64,000 bases of DNA from the NCBI GenBank assembly GCA_006247105.1, contig CM016925.1:310001-374000 (forward strand), read 5' to 3'. This DNA comes from Giardia muris (lineage: Eukaryota > Fornicata > Diplomonadida > Hexamitidae). The translations under genes and the position numbers were made by a program. This document shows, in pieces, positions 5,797 to 29,546 of this stretch (position 1 is the first letter of the stretch; every line of letters starts with the position of its first letter). The notes under the pieces were generated by a model. The model had not been told where the DNA came from. It did no database searches and worked only from the letters and a program-made list of their open reading frames with translations.

Positions 5797-6729
5797 ATGC
5801 TGACCGCTCGCGGCTTGATTGACGATGATTCTGGCCCCATTGACATCTCACTGGGATACATCGACCAGCACCTCACCATCAGCACCGGGGAGACTTGCAA
5901 TCTCTCCGCACCGGAGTACTCGCCTGCCGCCGAGGCTTTCCTTCATGGAGTCCTGCTCATCACGGGAGCAGACGTCGTCCTCGCCCCTGGCAGTAGCTTC
6001 TCCGGAGTCCTCGCCCCCGGGACGAAGAAGATCGTCGACTTCCTAGGCCTCATCCCGAACTCGTCACTCCCCCAATCTCAATTCACTCTGGTACCCATGA
6101 CTGGAAGAAGTCTTGTCACCCTCATCCAGACATATCTCGCGGAGGCCCAATGCCAAACCCTTCAGCAGCCACGGTTCTTCCTTCGGCTCGTGGGGCTCCG
6201 GTTTGAATACACCTCTCCGGATTGCAGGATTAAGACCGTCCGATACTGCCGAACATGGATCCTAGAAGATCCACTATGTCACAACTGGGTCAGCATGGAC
6301 CCGTCGACCTCATTCATGGTCGCCATCGATAACTCTGTCTACACACACTTTGTCAATCAGTCCTTCTTCAACAAGGAGCTCAGTCAGCAGATGGACGTCA
6401 ATCTCATCGACGGGATCATCCGATATTTCCGCCAGTACAATGGCACAACTCTCGTGCCACACGATAACTTCAACCTTTCGCTAGTCTCCCTCTCCACGAA
6501 GGAGTTCAGGCTTAAGCTGCTCTTCCTCCTGGCCGTCCTGTCGTCAATCGTGTTGATGCTCGTCGTGAGGCAGTGCCTGGAGATGAAGAGGCAAGACCGT
6601 AACAGCCGTGTACAACTGTTCTATCGCTTACAGAGCGCTATCAAGGCTCCGTCGAGGATGAAGACCCCACAGCTGCCACGGAAGCAGACGAGACGTGAAA
6701 TACTGCGGGACATGGCGTCTTTGAATTAG
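5797..6729 (+). CDS. 5'-nucleotidase C-terminal-domain-like membrane protein
   Basis: 310 aa. Residues about 32-190 resemble the C-terminal substrate-binding domain of the 5'-nucleotidase/2',3'-cyclic phosphodiesterase family: GADVVLAPGSSFSG (57-70), LVPMTGRSLVTLIQTYL (98-114), then RFFLRLVGLRFEY (126-138) and FMVAIDNSVY (173-182). The metallophosphoesterase domain that normally precedes it is absent, so catalysis is unlikely. One transmembrane helix (about 239-257) is followed by a basic cytosolic tail. There is no clear signal peptide at the N-terminus. The gene may be a 5'-truncated nucleotidase or a binding-only derivative. It is divergent from the protease, with a 5-bp spacer. Confidence 0.6.
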   Translation: MLTARGLIDDDSGPIDISLGYIDQHLTISTGETCNLSAPEYSPAAEAFLHGVLLITGADVVLAPGSSFSGVLAPGTKKIVDFLGLIPNSSLPQSQFTLVPMTGRSLVTLIQTYLAEAQCQTLQQPRFFLRLVGLRFEYTSPDCRIKTVRYCRTWILEDPLCHNWVSMDPSTSFMVAIDNSVYTHFVNQSFFNKELSQQMDVNLIDGIIRYFRQYNGTTLVPHDNFNLSLVSLSTKEFRLKLLFLLAVLSSIVLMLVVRQCLEMKRQDRNSRVQLFYRLQSAIKAPSRMKTPQLPRKQTRREILRDMASLN

Positions 6730-7649
6730 GATGAGGTCTTCCTCGGTTCCCAGACCTCAATGGGCCACTCTGATGTCGGATGGCCTACGTGGCTCCGCAT
6801 CACCTTCGTGTAAAAGAAGGAAGGCTCGAGCCCATAAGCCTGCATCTCCGGGCCATGGACGGTAAGAAGGTGTTCGTGGCAATTCTCGCAGATCGCCAGA
6901 CATGCCCAACAGAAAGCTGTGTTACAGTGGAGGCAGGCGACGCTATCACAGCCGTCATCATCCTTGAGATACCTCCGCTTGCAGTTGGGACAGGGCTTTG
7001 TGATGTTGTTAGTAGAGTCAGACCGCATATCGGGGAAGTGACGACCACAAACGTCGCAGGTCTGTTCGCAGATGACCCGGAAGTTCCTCTGAGGACTCGG
7101 ACTGCACCTTTGAGTCTTGTCATATGGATTCCGATCACGGGAGAGGCGGGAGAACTGCGAGGCTCCATCAACGGGGACTGTATGACGGGGGACACCTCCC
7201 CTTCCAGTCTCATCTGGACGAGAATGGGTAGGGGATGCCAACTGGAGAGGTACGGGGGATCCAGTGACGAGAGCTCTCCAGAGTGAATGGGACGTTTCGC
7301 GGGACCGGGGGGAGCACCGAATCCTGGGGTCTGCGGGCTTCTTCTCTGTGCTAGTGGAGTGGGTGCTCAGCCACAGGGACCGGAGGAAGATGAGAGGAGT
7401 CCTCAGTGAGAGGAGGTGGGGGGAGATGGATGTAGAATCGCCCGCAACGAGGCCAGTACACGTGCTGAGCAGCTCCAGAAGCCAGTCGATGAAGAGAAGA
7501 ATGAGCAGAAGAAGAATGCTGCTCTTATCGACAGTCCCAAAGCCCAGCTCTCCAAGACCACTGAGGACCTCAAGAGAGCACTTGCAGACCAGAAGGCCCA
7601 GAACCTCGCCCTCGAGAAGGAGGTTGTCCAATTGAGGACCGAGAGCCAT
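6726..7649 (-). CDS. RING/IBR-type zinc-finger protein (RBR-like) with disrupted 5' end
   Basis: The frame is open for 307 codons. The C-terminal 114 residues (from about 7070 down) carry the Cys pattern of an IBR/RING2 module: CEQTCDVCG (194-202), CPNC (220-223), GCDSVACLHC (233-242), then FCWAC and CENCHEH (247-260). This pattern is typical of RBR ubiquitin ligases. Upstream is Ser/Pro/Arg-rich sequence without any ATG until 7649. That ATG lies inside the 962-bp kinase duplication read antisense, so the first 37 residues are almost certainly not original. The 5' half of the gene was probably replaced when the kinase fragment arrived. It could be an expressed chimera or a pseudogene. The stop overlaps the end of the nucleotidase-like gene by 4 bp. 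Confidence 0.6.
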   Translation of the reverse strand: MALGPQLDNLLLEGEVLGLLVCKCSLEVLSGLGELGFGTVDKSSILLLLILLFIDWLLELLSTCTGLVAGDSTSISPHLLSLRTPLIFLRSLWLSTHSTSTEKKPADPRIRCSPRSRETSHSLWRALVTGSPVPLQLASPTHSRPDETGRGGVPRHTVPVDGASQFSRLSRDRNPYDKTQRCSPSPQRNFRVICEQTCDVCGRHFPDMRSDSTNNITKPCPNCKRRYLKDDDGCDSVACLHCNTAFCWACLAICENCHEHLLTVHGPEMQAYGLEPSFFYTKVMRSHVGHPTSEWPIEVWEPRKTSS

Positions 7650-8609
7650 GACATGAAAGACCTTCGGATACGCCTCGAAGAGGTGGAGGAGGAGAAGAGG
7701 GTCCTCCTCCAGAACCTCGCTGCTGTCGGGGGCAGGCTTCCCCCTGCACGGGAGGACAGCTCTCTCATCTCATCCGCCATCAGAGGAGACCTCAACACAC
7801 TCCGAAGGCACCTCGACCAGGCGGGACAGAAGGACTCCTCAGGCATGACGGCCCTGATGCACGCCGCCTCCCGAGGCCAGACCGAGGTCGTCCGCCTCCT
7901 CCGGCCCCTCGAGGCCCGCCTTCAGGACGGGAGGGGATGGACGGCCCTGATGCATGCAGTGGGGGGAGGACACGAGGAATGCGTCGGCCTCCTCCTTCTG
8001 GAGAGGGACCTGAAGGACAGGGAGGGCAGGACGGCAGAGGACGTCGCCAACGGCCTTCCCGACGGGGAGAGGAGGAGGATCACGCCTCTCCTCAGAAGGA
8101 AGGTCCACCTCCCCGACCTTCCCGATGAGCTCTCGTCCTTCCAGCTTACGGGGAGGCTCGGAAGGGGGGCCTTCGGGACCGTCTTCTCCGCCTGGTCCGA
8201 GGAGCACGGGAACAGCGCCCTGAAGGTCGTCGAGTACGAGGAGATGGAGAGGACGATCGTCGACTCCCTCCGAAGGGAGATGGGGACCATCCCCTCCCTC
8301 GAGCACCCCCACGTCCTCCGCTACCACCGGGTGCACGACGACCCGGACAACGGGACCGCCTACCTCGTGATGGACTGGTGCTCCGGGACGCTCCTCGACG
8401 AGGTCCGGGGGCGCGGGGAGAGGGGAGAGCCCTTCAGGGACGAGGAGGTGTGGAGATGCCTTCGGGAGATGGCGAGCGGTCTTGCCTACCTCCACGAGAA
8501 GAGGTATGTTCATAGAGACCTGAAGCCGGAGAACGTCCTCCTCTCCTATTATGGTTTCATTGGCCTGGGAGTATTGATATGTGATACACGGCATGTTCCT
8601 GTTGCTTGA
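7416..8609 (+). pseudogene. Truncated second copy of NEK-ankyrin kinase
   Basis: The frame is open from 7410 to 8609, but the first ATG is at 7653, inside the coiled coil. It begins with a short coiled-coil stretch unlike copy 1 (about 7440-7537), then 962 bp matching 2010-2971, then about 30 bp of divergent kinase sequence through HRDLKPENVLL, and then unrelated sequence to the stop. The DFG loop, activation segment, APE and whole C-lobe are missing, so no active kinase can result. The different flanks and the divergent HRD segment (EKRYVHRDLKPEN against ERGLVHRDLKPGN) suggest a mosaic of two NEK genes. A product of up to 319 residues from 7653 cannot be excluded. Confidence 0.8.
7538..8499 (+). 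repeat. Copy 2 of 962-bp near-identical duplication
   Basis: Matches 2010-2971 with about nine substitutions and no indels. The left border is at the motif cccaaagcccag and the right border falls within the codons just before HRD. No terminal inverted repeat or target-site duplication is evident, so homologous recombination or gene conversion is more likely than transposition. Confidence 0.95.
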
Positions 8610-8702
8610 AAGATGGAATAGGTCTCCGAGTGGTCGCAGGACAGCGTAAGCGGAGACAGTCCCCGAATCCAGGTGGACTGCCACAGTAGACACATCTCCG
8701 AA

Positions 8703-10070
8703 ATGCTTTGGTTTGTGACCATTTGTGCAGCCTCACTTGTTGAGGCCTATGCCCGTGGAGAGCGTGAGTACAACGAGCTGACGTCTGCAGGTCCGGACGA
8801 CGCCTGCTTCGCATCTCTCGGCCTGGACCTCAGAGAGATCTGCCCCCAGGTACTGGAAAGTGAGGGCGACGATGTGATACATCAGTATGCTGCCCTGCGT
8901 CTGACCAGCTGTTACCTCGAACTCACCGGACTCTCCCCTGTTCGGTGCTGCCCCCGTCGTCCCGGAAGAGCTTCCAAGCTTCGGGCATGTATCCGTACAC
9001 TGGGCAAGGAGGAGGGAGGCACTGGGGTTGCGGTCTTCGTGCACCAGCTCGGTCGCATCTTTGATCTTTGCGTCTACCTCGAGGCATCGGCCTTCCAGCG
9101 ACGTTCAGCGTCGGCTTCTCGTGACCTCCTGGCCTCATCCGAGCGTGCACATGATGCCTTGATTACATTGCAACAGACTGCGCATAGCACACTCGAGGAG
9201 CTCTCCGCCCAAAGCTCTAATCTCCAGGCGTTGATCGAAGCTCTATCCGACTTGGCCCTGCATGCGGTCACTGCACAGGAGCAATTGGGGAAGAGGATGG
9301 AGACACTAGATACGGCACTGTCGAGTCAGACGGCAAGTCTCCAAAAAGGTCTGAACGATGCCCTCGTCGCCCAGGAGTCTGCCATAGCCCGGGTTGGTGC
9401 TCTGGTAGAAAGTCTCGAGGCCCGTCTGGACATCATACACGAGTCGCTCAACGTCACTGCCGATACTGTGAGGCACGTGTCGGATGAGCTTGAGATAGCG
9501 GGAGGAAGGCTGTCCGGGATCGCTGCTTCCACAAATGCTCTTCAAGGGGCAGTCGAGACGCTTACAGAGGAAGTCGAACGTCATTCAGTCTACGTTGCTG
9601 AGGTGCACAAAGAGCAGCAAGCCTCGTCCGAAGCACTTTCAGCGGCCCTGGAGTCAGTCGAGCACCAAGCAAGACAGCAGACCGCTGCCCTGATCGCAGT
9701 TGGAGAGGCCGTGGAGAGGGTTACGACGGTCGGCTTCCGCCCCTTCCACATCCTCGGCCTTCTCGAGAAGCGGGCTCCAGGCGGGGTCGTCTGGCATCTA
9801 GGCGGATATGTCGTGGCCCGTGCCTCTTCAGCCCTCTGTCACTCAGGAGATTCCGTCTCACTCGCCGCTCTCTTCTGCGCGACGTACCTCGTTGAGTATG
9901 CAGTCGGTAGCGGCGGAGCCCTTCTGGCATCATGCGTACCGCGCCCAGACGTCTTTGTTGCTGTGACACGTGGTCTGCAGTATCTGATACGTGCCCTGTC
10001 TATCCTTCCTATCATCCTCCCCCTCTTCCCGGCACACCACACCAAGAGATCATCGAGGAAAGGGCGGTGA
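8703..10070 (+). CDS. KAR5/GEX1/Brambleberry-like nuclear membrane fusion protein
   Basis: 455 aa from the ATG at 8703, chosen because it begins a clear signal peptide (MLWFVTICAASLVEA). Next comes a Cys-containing N-terminal domain with the family pattern: a Cys, then 'ICPQVLES', then 'ALRLTSCYLELTG' and two Cys. A long amphipathic coiled coil runs from about 150 to 345 (SSERAHDAL through QTAALIAVGEAVERV). The C-terminus has two or three hydrophobic segments (about 370-445) and a basic end. This order (signal, Cys-rich domain, coiled coils, C-terminal membrane segments) defines the KAR5/GEX1/BMB family, which fuses nuclear envelopes in karyogamy. In a binucleate diplomonad it would fit nuclear fusion in the cyst (inference). 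The family call rests on pattern only. Confidence 0.65.
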   Translation: MLWFVTICAASLVEAYARGEREYNELTSAGPDDACFASLGLDLREICPQVLESEGDDVIHQYAALRLTSCYLELTGLSPVRCCPRRPGRASKLRACIRTLGKEEGGTGVAVFVHQLGRIFDLCVYLEASAFQRRSASASRDLLASSERAHDALITLQQTAHSTLEELSAQSSNLQALIEALSDLALHAVTAQEQLGKRMETLDTALSSQTASLQKGLNDALVAQESAIARVGALVESLEARLDIIHESLNVTADTVRHVSDELEIAGGRLSGIAASTNALQGAVETLTEEVERHSVYVAEVHKEQQASSEALSAALESVEHQARQQTAALIAVGEAVERVTTVGFRPFHILGLLEKRAPGGVVWHLGGYVVARASSALCHSGDSVSLAALFCATYLVEYAVGSGGALLASCVPRPDVFVAVTRGLQYLIRALSILPIILPLFPAHHTKRSSRKGR

Positions 10071-10080
10071 CGAATTCCGT

Positions 10081-10437
10081 TCATAGATCAAGAGCTCGTA
10101 ACGCCCGGGCCAGCGACTCGTCCTCTGACGGAGTCCGGATGGAGGCGAGGTCCACGAACGAGGGAATCTGGTCAGGGCTGTATCGTCGGAACTCGTCTGG
10201 AGTAGCCGCGAGTGGCGAGACGAGTTGTCCGTGTAAGGCATCCTCGGTTGGGCGCCTTGTGGGGAAGGGGTCTCTGGGAAGTACTTTTTGCCCTCTCATG
10301 GATGGAAGGTCAGGAGCATCGTAGGAATACAGACTCGATGATGCAGAATCCACGGGGGATGAAGTCTTGAGGGCAGGGGGCCAGTGAGACTCTTTCTTTT
10401 GTACATCGAGCCCCAGTTCTGGCCTCTCTTGCCTCTT
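10081..10437 (-). pseudogene. Small gene remnant, Ser/Pro-rich
   Basis: The minus frame is open for about 118 codons with no ATG. The translation looks protein-like, for example 'SLYSYDAPDLPSMRGQKVLP' and 'RRYSPDQIPSFVDLASI'. Upstream, another minus frame (10501-10310) reads 'SSEKTPQPLKEARE' at the place where this frame has 'KRQERPELGLDVQ', which suggests a frameshift near 10430. I infer the 3' end of a decayed minus-strand gene. No family recognised. Confidence 0.4.
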
Positions 10438-10550
10438 TCAGAGGTTGGGGTGTCTTCTCAGAAGATCCTGGCCACATCGTACTCTGCACGCCCTCACCCA
10501 ATTATCGCTAGTTCGGCTATCGATAGAGTGTATCCCTCGATTAAAAGAAG

Positions 10551-11045
10551 ATGCGCATCGTCCTCTACTACTCCCACCTGGCCGAGCCTGTGAGCGTCGT
10601 CAACGCCCCTCTGATCGAGGAGGCGAAGAAGCTCCCCAACGTCCAGGTCCGTTGGCTCGACTCTCTCTACCCCTCCTTCCGTCTGACCCCCGAACAGATC
10701 GCTGCCGAGCAGAAGATCATCGAGGGTGCCGACGCGGTCTTCTTCCAGTTTCCAGTCCACTGGTTCTCCTGTCCTGCAATGCTCAAGAGCTTCATCGATT
10801 CGGTCTTCGCCTATGGGTGGGCCTACGGGACAGGAGAGGCATTACGTGGAAAGAAGTACCGCGTGATCATGACGACCGGTGGGAACTCTAAGAGCTATTC
10901 TGGAGAGTTCACGATCAACGATCTCGCAAAGCCCTTCATCACCTCCGCGAAGTATTGCAGTATGGAGCCACTGCCTTTCCACGTGATCCACTCCGACAGT
11001 CCGAGTGAGGGCCGTGTGGAGAAGTACCTCTCCCTCTTCAAGTGA
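10551..11045 (+). CDS. Flavodoxin-fold NAD(P)H quinone oxidoreductase
   Basis: 164 aa. The N-terminal strand MRIVLYYSHL with the flavodoxin-like beta-alpha start is followed by 'ADAVFFQFPVHWFSCPAMLKSF', 'VFAYGWAYGTGEALRGK' and 'IMTTGGNSKSYS', all typical of the KefF/YwrO/NQO-like (Flavodoxin_2) family. It binds FMN or FAD and reduces quinones with two electrons, probably in the cytosol, and would give oxygen or drug tolerance. The length is a little under the family's usual 170-190. The ATG follows 'ttaaaagaag'. Relatives are mainly bacterial, so transfer is likely (inference). The stop lies within AGTGAA (11041-11046). Confidence 0.88.
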   Translation: MRIVLYYSHLAEPVSVVNAPLIEEAKKLPNVQVRWLDSLYPSFRLTPEQIAAEQKIIEGADAVFFQFPVHWFSCPAMLKSFIDSVFAYGWAYGTGEALRGKKYRVIMTTGGNSKSYSGEFTINDLAKPFITSAKYCSMEPLPFHVIHSDSPSEGRVEKYLSLFK

Positions 11046-11430
11046 ATCCTCCTGGAGCGGGGTCGGCATCGAGGTCCTCTAGTGTGGAGTGCTCAGAGAG
11101 GGGAGGATCATCTCCAGTCTTCTCTGAAGGGTGGGAGCGAACAGGACCGATTGAACAGCAGTCCGGAGCTCTCATCAACGGCCTGACATCCCTGGGTGGC
11201 TGTGGAGTGGGCCGCATCATCGACTCGTCAACCTCCAAACGACCTCGAGGCACCTCTGGAGATACAGGCACCCGGGTGCAGACGGGACGAGTCAGTTCGG
11301 GGGCTGGCCCTTGCCCTCCAATAGAGCCCGGACGACCCGCAATGCTCGGGACGATCGACCGCTCCTCCGGGAGGGCAGTACCGGAGATCGACGTCCTCGA
11401 GGACTCGGTGGAGGTGAAGGCTCGAGCTAC
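11042..11430. other. Non-VSP sequence fused in frame upstream of the VSP
   Basis: The VSP reading frame stays open back to 11042 but has neither a signal peptide nor CXXC motifs before about 11436. On the minus strand the same bases are open for 177 codons from 11571 to 11038. Its last 120 residues are Ser/Pro/Arg-rich and look more like a genuine protein tail than the plus frame does. I infer that a decayed minus-strand gene was joined to a VSP fragment near 11420-11440. Confidence 0.4.
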
Positions 11431-12913
11431 GGGAGAGTGCGAGGCAAACTCAAAGTTCACCATCCCGGGGGTTGAGGGGACGTTCTGCAAGAAGTGCAGT
11501 GACACGAACCAGGCCCCGATCAATGGGAAGTGTGGGGCGACTACTGCTGTCACGGATGCTGAATGCGCCAATGGTGTCTGTACAAAGTGTGGAGACTCAA
11601 GTACGGACTACTTCCTCTTCTATGGTGGGTGCTACAAGACGGACACCTCTCCTGGGAACAAGCTCTGCAAGACCGTGGTTGCTGGGAAGTGCACCGTTCT
11701 CCAGGATAACTCCCCCGCCTTCATCAAGAGTGAGGTTCTCTACCTCTGCAGTGACAACTCGACAGATGCGGGAGGAAAAGAGAACTGCGGTACATGCACC
11801 TACGAGTCGTCCTCAACCACCTTCACCTGTCAGACCTGCCTCCCCGGCTTCGGCCTTGTTGACTCGACCTGCAAGGCCTGCACCGTCCAGAACTGCAAGA
11901 CGTGCTCCTCCTCCGCCTGCTCCGAGTGCGCCTCCGGGTTCGGGCCCGTCTACGACTCATCCCTCGTCACCACGAACTGCACCTCCTGCCCCACGGACTG
12001 CACCGACTGCGCCGACCAGGGCTTCTCGACCATCTGCGAGAAGTGCGGAACGGGGAAGGTCCCCATCGACGGGAACTGCTCTGATCCGAACTCGAACGTC
12101 TGCACGGCCCCATCATCCCCAGACGGGACCTGCTCGTCCTGCAAGAACGGGTTCCTCTTCTACCAGGGCGGGTGTCTCTCCCCCCAAAAGGCGGCGGACC
12201 TCAAGGTCTGTGCCCTGGGAAGCCAGCTCCTCGTCGGGAACACGACCGTCTGCACCGAGTGCAAGGGGGGCTTCGTCCCGATCGACGGGGAGTGTCTTCC
12301 GATCAAGCAGATCAACAATGGGACGACGAGGGCAGGTCAGGACATCTGCCTCGACGAGAAGGGGAACAAGGTCTCGGACACCGCCACGAAGTGCGGGGCC
12401 TGCATCAATACGACAGTCAACACCAACAACTACTTCCTCTTCAACGGAGGCTGCTACCCCATCCCGGCCGCGGGGTCTTCCTCCTCTTCCTCTGTCGGGA
12501 GCCTCCTCTGCTCAGCGGCCACGAATGGAAAGTGCACTACTCCCGCCTCCAACGCCCCCTTCATCCTCGATGCATCCTCAGGCGCCTTCACGGCCTGTCC
12601 GAAGGAGTGCGGGGCCTGCACCTCCTCGACCGCCTGCAGCTCCTGCGCCCTTGGGTACTACAACACCACTACTGTGACCGGCCCCTCCGACTGCACGGCC
12701 TGTCCCAGTGGGTGCACCTCCTGTCCAAATGGGAAGTGCGCCCTCTGCTGGGACGGCTCCACTCCCACCAACGATGCCTGCCCCTCTCCCCCCTCCTCCA
12801 GTTCTTCGGGGCTCTCGGGGGGTGCCATTGCGGGGATCGTCATCGCCGTCCTGCTGGTGCTGGGAGGCCTCGGGGGCTTCCTCGGTTGGTGGTTCGGATG
12901 CAGGGGGAAGTGA
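11342..12913 (+). CDS. Variant-specific surface protein (VSP), signal peptide missing
   Basis: 523 aa from the first in-frame ATG; the frame is open from 11042. From about 11436 the product is a typical VSP: about 30 CXXC motifs, GGCY boxes ('FLFYGGCYK', 'FLFNGGCYP'), 'CTKCGDSS' and 'GFVPIDGEC' modules, a Ser-rich spacer, a transmembrane helix (SGGAIAGIVIAVLLVLGGLGG) and the tail GCRGK. VSPs coat the trophozoite and are exchanged in antigenic variation. A VSP needs an N-terminal signal peptide to reach the surface, and none is present, so this copy is incomplete and probably serves as a silent or donor sequence (inference). The tail lacks the final Ala of G. intestinalis VSPs, as in G. muris. 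AGTGAA overlaps the stop (12913-12918). Confidence 0.9.
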   Translation: MLGTIDRSSGRAVPEIDVLEDSVEVKARATGECEANSKFTIPGVEGTFCKKCSDTNQAPINGKCGATTAVTDAECANGVCTKCGDSSTDYFLFYGGCYKTDTSPGNKLCKTVVAGKCTVLQDNSPAFIKSEVLYLCSDNSTDAGGKENCGTCTYESSSTTFTCQTCLPGFGLVDSTCKACTVQNCKTCSSSACSECASGFGPVYDSSLVTTNCTSCPTDCTDCADQGFSTICEKCGTGKVPIDGNCSDPNSNVCTAPSSPDGTCSSCKNGFLFYQGGCLSPQKAADLKVCALGSQLLVGNTTVCTECKGGFVPIDGECLPIKQINNGTTRAGQDICLDEKGNKVSDTATKCGACINTTVNTNNYFLFNGGCYPIPAAGSSSSSSVGSLLCSAATNGKCTTPASNAPFILDASSGAFTACPKECGACTSSTACSSCALGYYNTTTVTGPSDCTACPSGCTSCPNGKCALCWDGSTPTNDACPSPPSSSSSGLSGGAIAGIVIAVLLVLGGLGGFLGWWFGCRGK

Positions 12914-28478: not shown

Positions 28479-29546
28479 TCAATCGGGGCAATCCGCGGGA
28501 GCATAGTCTGCTAGGAGCCCCTCGATGGCCGTAAGGAGTGCGTCTGCGACGTGGGAGGTGTCTCCAAGAAGGTCCACGACTGTTAGGTGCAACTCGCGTA
28601 GGAGGGGATATATGGCTATGCTCTTTAAGCGTTCTTCTCCACTAGGAATGTTACAGAGGAGAAGGATGCAGTCGGCTAGGTCCCCATGAGGTGCCTCAAC
28701 AACGGGGACGTACATGGACTTGTCAAGAACCTCTATTAACTCCCTTGATAATGCTTCTCGTTCTTCCGGTCGTAATCCCCTTTTCCCCTCGTCGGTCCAT
28801 TCTTGGCAAGTACGGTCAATCACTAAGGCCGGAAGGAATTGAAGGACGAGCTCACAACATATAGTCAATAGCTCAGTGCTTGTACCAGTTGTTCCTTTTA
28901 AGTGTAGGAAGATGTTGCGTAGAAGAGGTGTGAGTGGAGTAGAAGTCACCCCTCCTCTTAATTCGTCTGAGATCTGTCTCGCAAGGCCTTTAGCTTGAAC
29001 CTCCTTCGCAAGTTCGATTACTATGTCAATGGATAAGGATTTCAATGCAAAACAGTTAGTTAGGAAGTAAATGCAGCCTGGACGAAGAGATGAAGATGGG
29101 TTCTGAGCCCACTCGCAGATTACTTTGAAGAGGGAACGAATGTTTGTATTTGAGACGAGATGGTTAGTGAAAGCTTCATGACGAGAAAGGTTGACGAGGA
29201 TCGTCAAGAATAAGGGTTGCATCTTGTTAGTCACCTCTCTAGTCAAGATATTATGTATCAGGTATGAGATCAACGCCGGAAGATGATTACTATTTGCTAT
29301 AGTTATGACAGCATTTTCATCCTCACATGCCATACTTAATATCTTGTGGGCCAGCAACGAGCACGTGACATCATGTTCTGTACGTGGGGTTTGAATCATA
29401 GTAGTAATGATAGCCTCACAGCAATCAGCCTTGCTTACCTCATCAACCACGGACTCGTGACGGTTCTCCTTCAAGCCACGTAGGATAGCATCGGCCACTT
29501 CTTGAGATGGAATGAATGAGCGAAGGGCTATAGAAATGTCTTCCAT
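28479..29546 (-). CDS. HGH1: HGH1-like armadillo-repeat chaperone
   Basis: 355 aa, all-helical. The N-terminal half has ARM-like units with the family's 'FLTILVNLSRHEAFTNHL' and 'SLRPGCIYFLTNCFAL' (compare RRGxxGxxxNCCF). The C-terminus carries the diagnostic HGH1 block 'CILLLCNIPSGEERLKSIAI' followed by 'YPLLRELH' and a final helix. HGH1 helps TRiC fold elongation factor eEF2 in yeast (family knowledge). The gene begins 6 bp after the stop of the upstream flavoenzyme on the same strand. Confidence 0.75.
   Translation of the reverse strand: MEDISIALRSFIPSQEVADAILRGLKENRHESVVDEVSKADCCEAIITTMIQTPRTEHDVTCSLLAHKILSMACEDENAVITIANSNHLPALISYLIHNILTREVTNKMQPLFLTILVNLSRHEAFTNHLVSNTNIRSLFKVICEWAQNPSSSLRPGCIYFLTNCFALKSLSIDIVIELAKEVQAKGLARQISDELRGGVTSTPLTPLLRNIFLHLKGTTGTSTELLTICCELVLQFLPALVIDRTCQEWTDEGKRGLRPEEREALSRELIEVLDKSMYVPVVEAPHGDLADCILLLCNIPSGEERLKSIAIYPLLRELHLTVVDLLGDTSHVADALLTAIEGLLADYAPADCPD

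Follow-up and report, generated by a model that had tools for sequence, protein, structure and literature searches.

Proteins of the GEX1/KAR5/Brambleberry type bring about nuclear fusion in the sexual reproduction of plants, yeast and animals. They are defined by a signal peptide, a six-cysteine domain, one or two coiled coils and two or three C-terminal membrane segments (PMC4291462). Saccharomyces Kar5 and S. pombe Tht1 combine a signal, six cysteines, a coiled coil and two C-terminal membrane segments and are described in that account as mostly lumenal; the placement of yeast Kar5 depends on the SUN protein Mps3, and it acts after outer-membrane fusion (PMC4291462, PMC7586128). Zebrafish Brambleberry, which we compared by its published description only, has the family layout and acts at embryonic karyomere fusion (PMC4291462). 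In metamonads, the wider clade of Giardia, Gex1 is placed with Hap2 among the conserved key meiotic proteins, a clade-level statement that is discussed for Carpediemonas (PMC8516963), and in the literature text accessible to us this was the sole clade-relevant statement joining Giardia or metamonads with GEX1/KAR5.

Nuclear fusion and DNA exchange have been reported for G. intestinalis in encystation and cysts (PMC8700996, PMC9235224, PMC11151923), and expression of Spo11, Hop1 and Rad51/Dmc1-type genes is documented for the Giardia cyst stage (PMC8700996, PMC9235224). We found no named envelope-fusing protein in the accessible text of this literature, and no report of nuclear fusion for G. 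muris. The original prediction had placed a KAR5/GEX1-like gene in a binucleate parasite that is reported to exchange DNA between its nuclei in cysts; it was right about the binucleate host, a gut parasite of the mouse, the assembly matching the published Giardia muris genome (PMC7641422), and the exchange is on record for G. intestinalis.

The window analysed here is a stretch of 64,000 nucleotides (C1:310001-374000), and the frame claimed for the gene is real: an uninterrupted ORF of 455 aa runs on the forward strand from an ATG at 8703 to a stop that ends at 10070. The ORF is open already from 8622, with a GTG in frame at 8673, and it is the ATG at 8703 that yields a signal-like N-terminus. 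The gene, its parts and its neighbours are these:

7416..8609, forward strand: ankyrin-NEK kinase piece, cut within the kinase domain after HRDLKPEN (kinase profile positions 2-136 of 263)
7761..10363, forward strand: core of a duplicated block common to five copies, about 98% identical (copy alignment)
8703..10070, forward strand: candidate GEX1/KAR5-like gene, 455 aa (ORF, plant GEX1 profile, genome search, copies)
8703..8747, forward strand: putative signal peptide, residues 1-15 (by eye; Kyte-Doolittle at most 1.2 over 19 residues)
8805..9071, forward strand: six-cysteine domain with C35, C47, C70, C83, C96 and C123, and C82 as an extra (profiles, shuffles, alignment)
9108..9737, forward strand: coiled coil, residues 136-345 (SMC-type matches, heptad period)
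9849..9929, forward strand: hydrophobic segment 1, residues 383-409 (Kyte-Doolittle)
9951..10040, forward strand: hydrophobic segment 2, residues 417-446, then a basic tail (Kyte-Doolittle, translation)
10551..11045, forward strand: flavodoxin-fold oxidoreductase (PF02525, E 7e-34 for the window copy)
11042..12913, forward strand: variant-specific surface protein (VSP) gene adjoining the block (Pfam)

The layout that had been read from the translation holds for the cysteine domain, the coil and the order of the parts, and is softer at both ends. The short hydrophobic N-terminus was recognized by eye, its 19-residue Kyte-Doolittle value not exceeding the threshold of 1.2; the C-terminal peaks (1.46 at 384-402 and 1.67 at 424-442) make two predicted membrane helices plausible, though not strongly so. 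Cysteines stand at residues 8, 35, 47, 70, 82, 83, 96, 123, 379, 392 and 411, and the stretch 'ALRLTSCYLELTG' occupies residues 64-76. Residues 136-345 (210 residues) contain neither proline nor cysteine and have a heptad period that 1 in 5,000 shuffles reached; SMC-type coiled-coil models match this region under their cut-offs (E 2.2e-6 and E 0.049).

Plant relatives were gathered with a bait sequence, which yielded 61 proteins; nearly all bear the names of flowering plants, and many are annotated as GAMETE EXPRESSED 1 (P0041 is unnamed); P0059, which lacks the six-cysteine pattern, was left out, leaving 60 plant GEX1. A profile of their cysteine domains and about 60 residues of adjoining coil matched the 455-aa protein at 18.1 bits (single-target E 9.7e-8, about 4.5e-4 when scaled to the 4,653 genes published in PMC7641422). 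Judged by the Pfam Tht1 model, the refuting outcome named with the original prediction, a lack of any significant profile match, would apply, but that model fails on plant GEX1 pieces as well (below). The score was 19.9-21.8 bits under three other weightings and only -2.6 bits (E 0.029) with unreduced sequence weights. The match is weak but specific: among 382 window frames the gene ranks first, with 17.6 bits vs 3.1 for the runner-up, and it is likewise first with a strict domain profile. A full-length profile of 50 plant proteins reached 31.9 bits (E 2.5e-12), a score to which the coil contributes, and single plant domain-plus-coil sequences scored from 1.6 to 19.1 bits (n=60). One-to-one comparisons in hhalign returned P-values of 9.8e-5, 1.4e-4 and 4.1e-4 with probabilities of just 30.4, 52.8 and 34.5%, and a profile of the plant C-terminus did not match the protein.

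When the protein was aligned without constraint to 18 plant GEX1, its six cysteines C35, C47, C70, C83, C96 and C123 fell in invariant columns, as did A64, L67, G76, L126, F131, L142, L153 and L263. The Giardia and plant proteins share the spacing from first to second cysteine (11), from third to fourth (12) and from the sixth to a phenylalanine (7), and also the succession of signal sequence (putative in Giardia), six-cysteine domain, a coil directly after it and C-terminal hydrophobic segments. They differ in that the Giardia protein is 16-20% identical to the 18 plant proteins, agrees with them at 8 of the 42 near-invariant non-cysteine plant positions in residues 24-150, has loops longer by 3-4 residues between the second and third, fourth and fifth, and fifth and sixth cysteines, carries the extra cysteine C82, has two hydrophobic segments vs three in plants, lacks a long tail after them, and is encoded in five genomic copies. 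Its layout resembles that described for Kar5 and Tht1, with a putative signal and two plausible membrane segments. From Tht1 it differs in having no match to the model of that protein, and with Kar5 the comparison is one of descriptions only.

Standard libraries offer little guidance on such a protein. Pfam Tht1 (PF04163) has no match in the whole protein, and nothing in Pfam matches residues 1-145; on 15 plant GEX1 domain pieces, for which 21 families were listed, none matched a GEX1 or Tht1 model. Because all 15 plant pieces are missed too, silence in Pfam is no test of membership, and PF04163 therefore does not define the wider family; a search with PF04163 was silent in the Giardia genome and equally in the 14 genomes that served as controls. 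With the whole protein as query, Pfam, NCBIfam and the PDB returned coiled-coil or chance matches alone, and the nine PDB matches to the plant GEX1 alignment are at chance level (best E 0.29). A word-based search of 5.8 billion proteins recovered, among the best 7,998 candidates by common words, the protein itself only, with the same outcome for residues 24-150 among 3,693 candidates; neither returned a relative from Giardia intestinalis, a species that may be missing from the collection. Scans of viral and prokaryote contigs gave 48, 40, 6 and 35 pattern matches, none of them confirmed. The protein was also considered as a VSP or high-cysteine membrane protein and rejected as such, with no VSP match in Pfam and no CXXC by eye.

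Three plant queries were run against the whole genome (52 contigs, 9.74 Mb), and one of them detects the gene. With P0060, a cysteine domain plus coil that had been the best of 60 in the local test of domain and coil, the five gene copies take ranks 1-5 of 9 at E 0.0019, and the next match stands at E 0.0176. The domain-only query P0061, top scorer of 60 when the domain was tested by itself, returned nothing at E 10 and had no first-pass candidate; full-length A. halleri GEX1 also returned nothing at E 10, with 13 candidates scored.

The gene had been claimed to lie in a recombining block, and here the evidence goes further than the claim. Five copies are present in the assembly, at C1:318703+ (the window), C4:541567-, C1:831419+, C1:847245- and C5:61162-, a count that is as assembled and may include a miscount in assembly. 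Their proteins are 98-100% identical, with invariant cysteines, and two copies match the window over 7545-12300 (93.4% including gaps). The two other C1 copies face each other within an inverted repeat of about 24 kb (approximately C1:827849-852179), whose arms, about 11 kb long and 99.8-99.98% identical, contain the copies and are separated by a 2-kb spacer, and this repeat holds a tail-to-tail pair of 596-aa VSP genes with 2,025 bp between them (839001 to 841027), the pair listed first in Table 3 of PMC7641422. Duplications in G. muris often go with NEK and ankyrin genes, according to the same source. Upstream of the gene, the ankyrin-NEK frame terminates at one common position in all five copies; its window version spans only half of the kinase profile. 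At least 40 places in the genome carry this piece, counting the five blocks (of 153 candidates, 40 were scored), and outside the five blocks the similarity stops at about 8542-8571, which marks the block junction. Downstream, a 164-aa frame follows in four of the five copies, and in four of five there comes next a frame that starts like the window VSP gene or shares its DNA; the Pfam identifications, as flavodoxin-fold and VSP respectively, were made on the window copy. We infer recent segmental duplication, or gene conversion keeping the copies alike. The five-copy amplification on recombining blocks is a new finding.

The profile test, the six-cysteine register and the domain order support family membership at the limit of detection, and as judged from sequence the 455-aa protein is quite probably a divergent member of the GEX1/KAR5 type. 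It could instead be a Giardia coiled-coil protein, secreted or in the ER membrane, that has no relation to the family, its GEX1-like cysteine spacing having arisen by chance and a generic coil having raised the score; we regard this as unlikely. The strict domain profile is near noise over a proteome when run on the whole protein (8.3 bits, E 1.7e-4; among 4,653 genes some 0.8 such matches would be expected), two of the three plant queries are silent genome-wide, and the database searches yielded no relative. Some 10 bits come from the coil, in part unspecifically, as 10 of 2,000 coil shuffles equal the real coil; coil pieces displaced by heptads averaged 13.8 with a maximum of 18.9, vs 21.6 for the real one (0 of 21 reach it). 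Against chance resemblance stand the shuffle tests of the domain. On the isolated domain the strict profile scores 11.6 bits, matched by none of 5,000 shuffles; with the cysteines held fixed, shuffles reached at most 10.2 (0 of 5,000), and with the domain-plus-coil profile at most 10.4 against 12.6 bits (0 of 2,000, of which 1,686 scored at all). Since cysteine-fixed shuffles fall short of the real score, residues other than cysteine matter; the cysteines carry the match, because masking them drops the domain-plus-coil score to -1.9 bits. The bare six-cysteine spacing occurs in 3 of 20,000 shuffles, although one VSP frame in the window also fits it, and a form extended by L and A/G-F/Y after the sixth cysteine, written after the match was known, occurs in no shuffle of 20,000 and in one window frame of 382, that of the gene. 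The putative signal, the coil and the C-terminal hydrophobic segments, moreover, stand in the family order.

A descendant of the GEX1 family might also have ceased to fuse nuclei, surviving as a passenger of VSP and NEK blocks or in another membrane task; this we consider rather improbable. The copies do share their blocks with NEK, oxidoreductase and VSP-like frames, and the accessible literature gave no report of nuclear fusion in G. muris. Coding DNA is identical between two copies, and dN/dS is 0.47-0.94 in the nine of ten copy pairs that differ, by 2-4 synonymous and 4-8 non-synonymous changes, from which we claim no selection because so few changes are not told from neutral ones. Yet the reading frame is open in five copies of five, on which ground a pseudogene was rejected as well, and within the core the gene is less variable (16 of 1,368 columns) than the intergenic DNA next to it (11 of 392; Fisher P 0.03) or the NEK piece (54 of 836), a difference that gene conversion could also produce.

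The genome offers a setting for nuclear fusion. It encodes a SUN-domain protein at C2:389000-391900 (PF07738, E 1e-13), and domain searches also detected Mnd1 and a TP6A_N/Spo11-type gene; that these three were found indicates that the search method works on this genome. By eye, the SUN-domain protein has a membrane segment and a long coiled coil. A genome search for HAP2 (PF10699) found nothing, a result to be read with control genomes that do not prove a divergent HAP2 detectable.

Our preferred reading, a divergent GEX1/KAR5/Brambleberry-type protein that also has a role in nuclear fusion, is in our estimation moderately probable as a whole. The short signal peptide would insert the protein into the ER and nuclear envelope, where the disulphide-bonded six-cysteine domain and the long coiled coil would be kept in the lumen and a C-terminal membrane hairpin would serve as anchor. 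Where two nuclei already lie in one cytoplasm, the protein would then couple their envelopes and help these to fuse, in the manner of yeast Kar5 once the outer membranes have merged, and the SUN-domain protein may be its partner there. We infer the localisation, lumenal topology, fusion activity and timing. A gamete fusogen such as HAP2 would not be needed in this proposal, because both nuclei share one cell.

More broadly, Giardia may keep, and G. muris may recently have multiplied, the ancient karyogamy factor GEX1/KAR5 without a detectable gamete fusogen, so that the machinery of sex would be reduced to fusing two nuclei in one cell and the gene would ride on recombining antigen-gene blocks that nuclear fusion would help to spread and homogenise; this is offered tentatively, as an idea we lean somewhat against. 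The 455-aa gene is a concrete test candidate for the nuclear fusion reported in Giardia cysts, and, if it is of GEX1 type, tagging the protein and removing the gene would put that process to a direct test.

Some smaller features of the window may be recorded. The canonical encystation Myb2 hexamer is absent from the sense strand within 200 bp of the gene, and one antisense occurrence lies at -104; this promoter motif lends the preferred reading no support. A very weak SUN-like match, under the cut-off (E 0.07), lies at 28989-29108 on the reverse strand. A 310-aa frame at 5797-6726, which has no Pfam match at E 0.001, shows a C-terminal hydrophobic stretch by eye.
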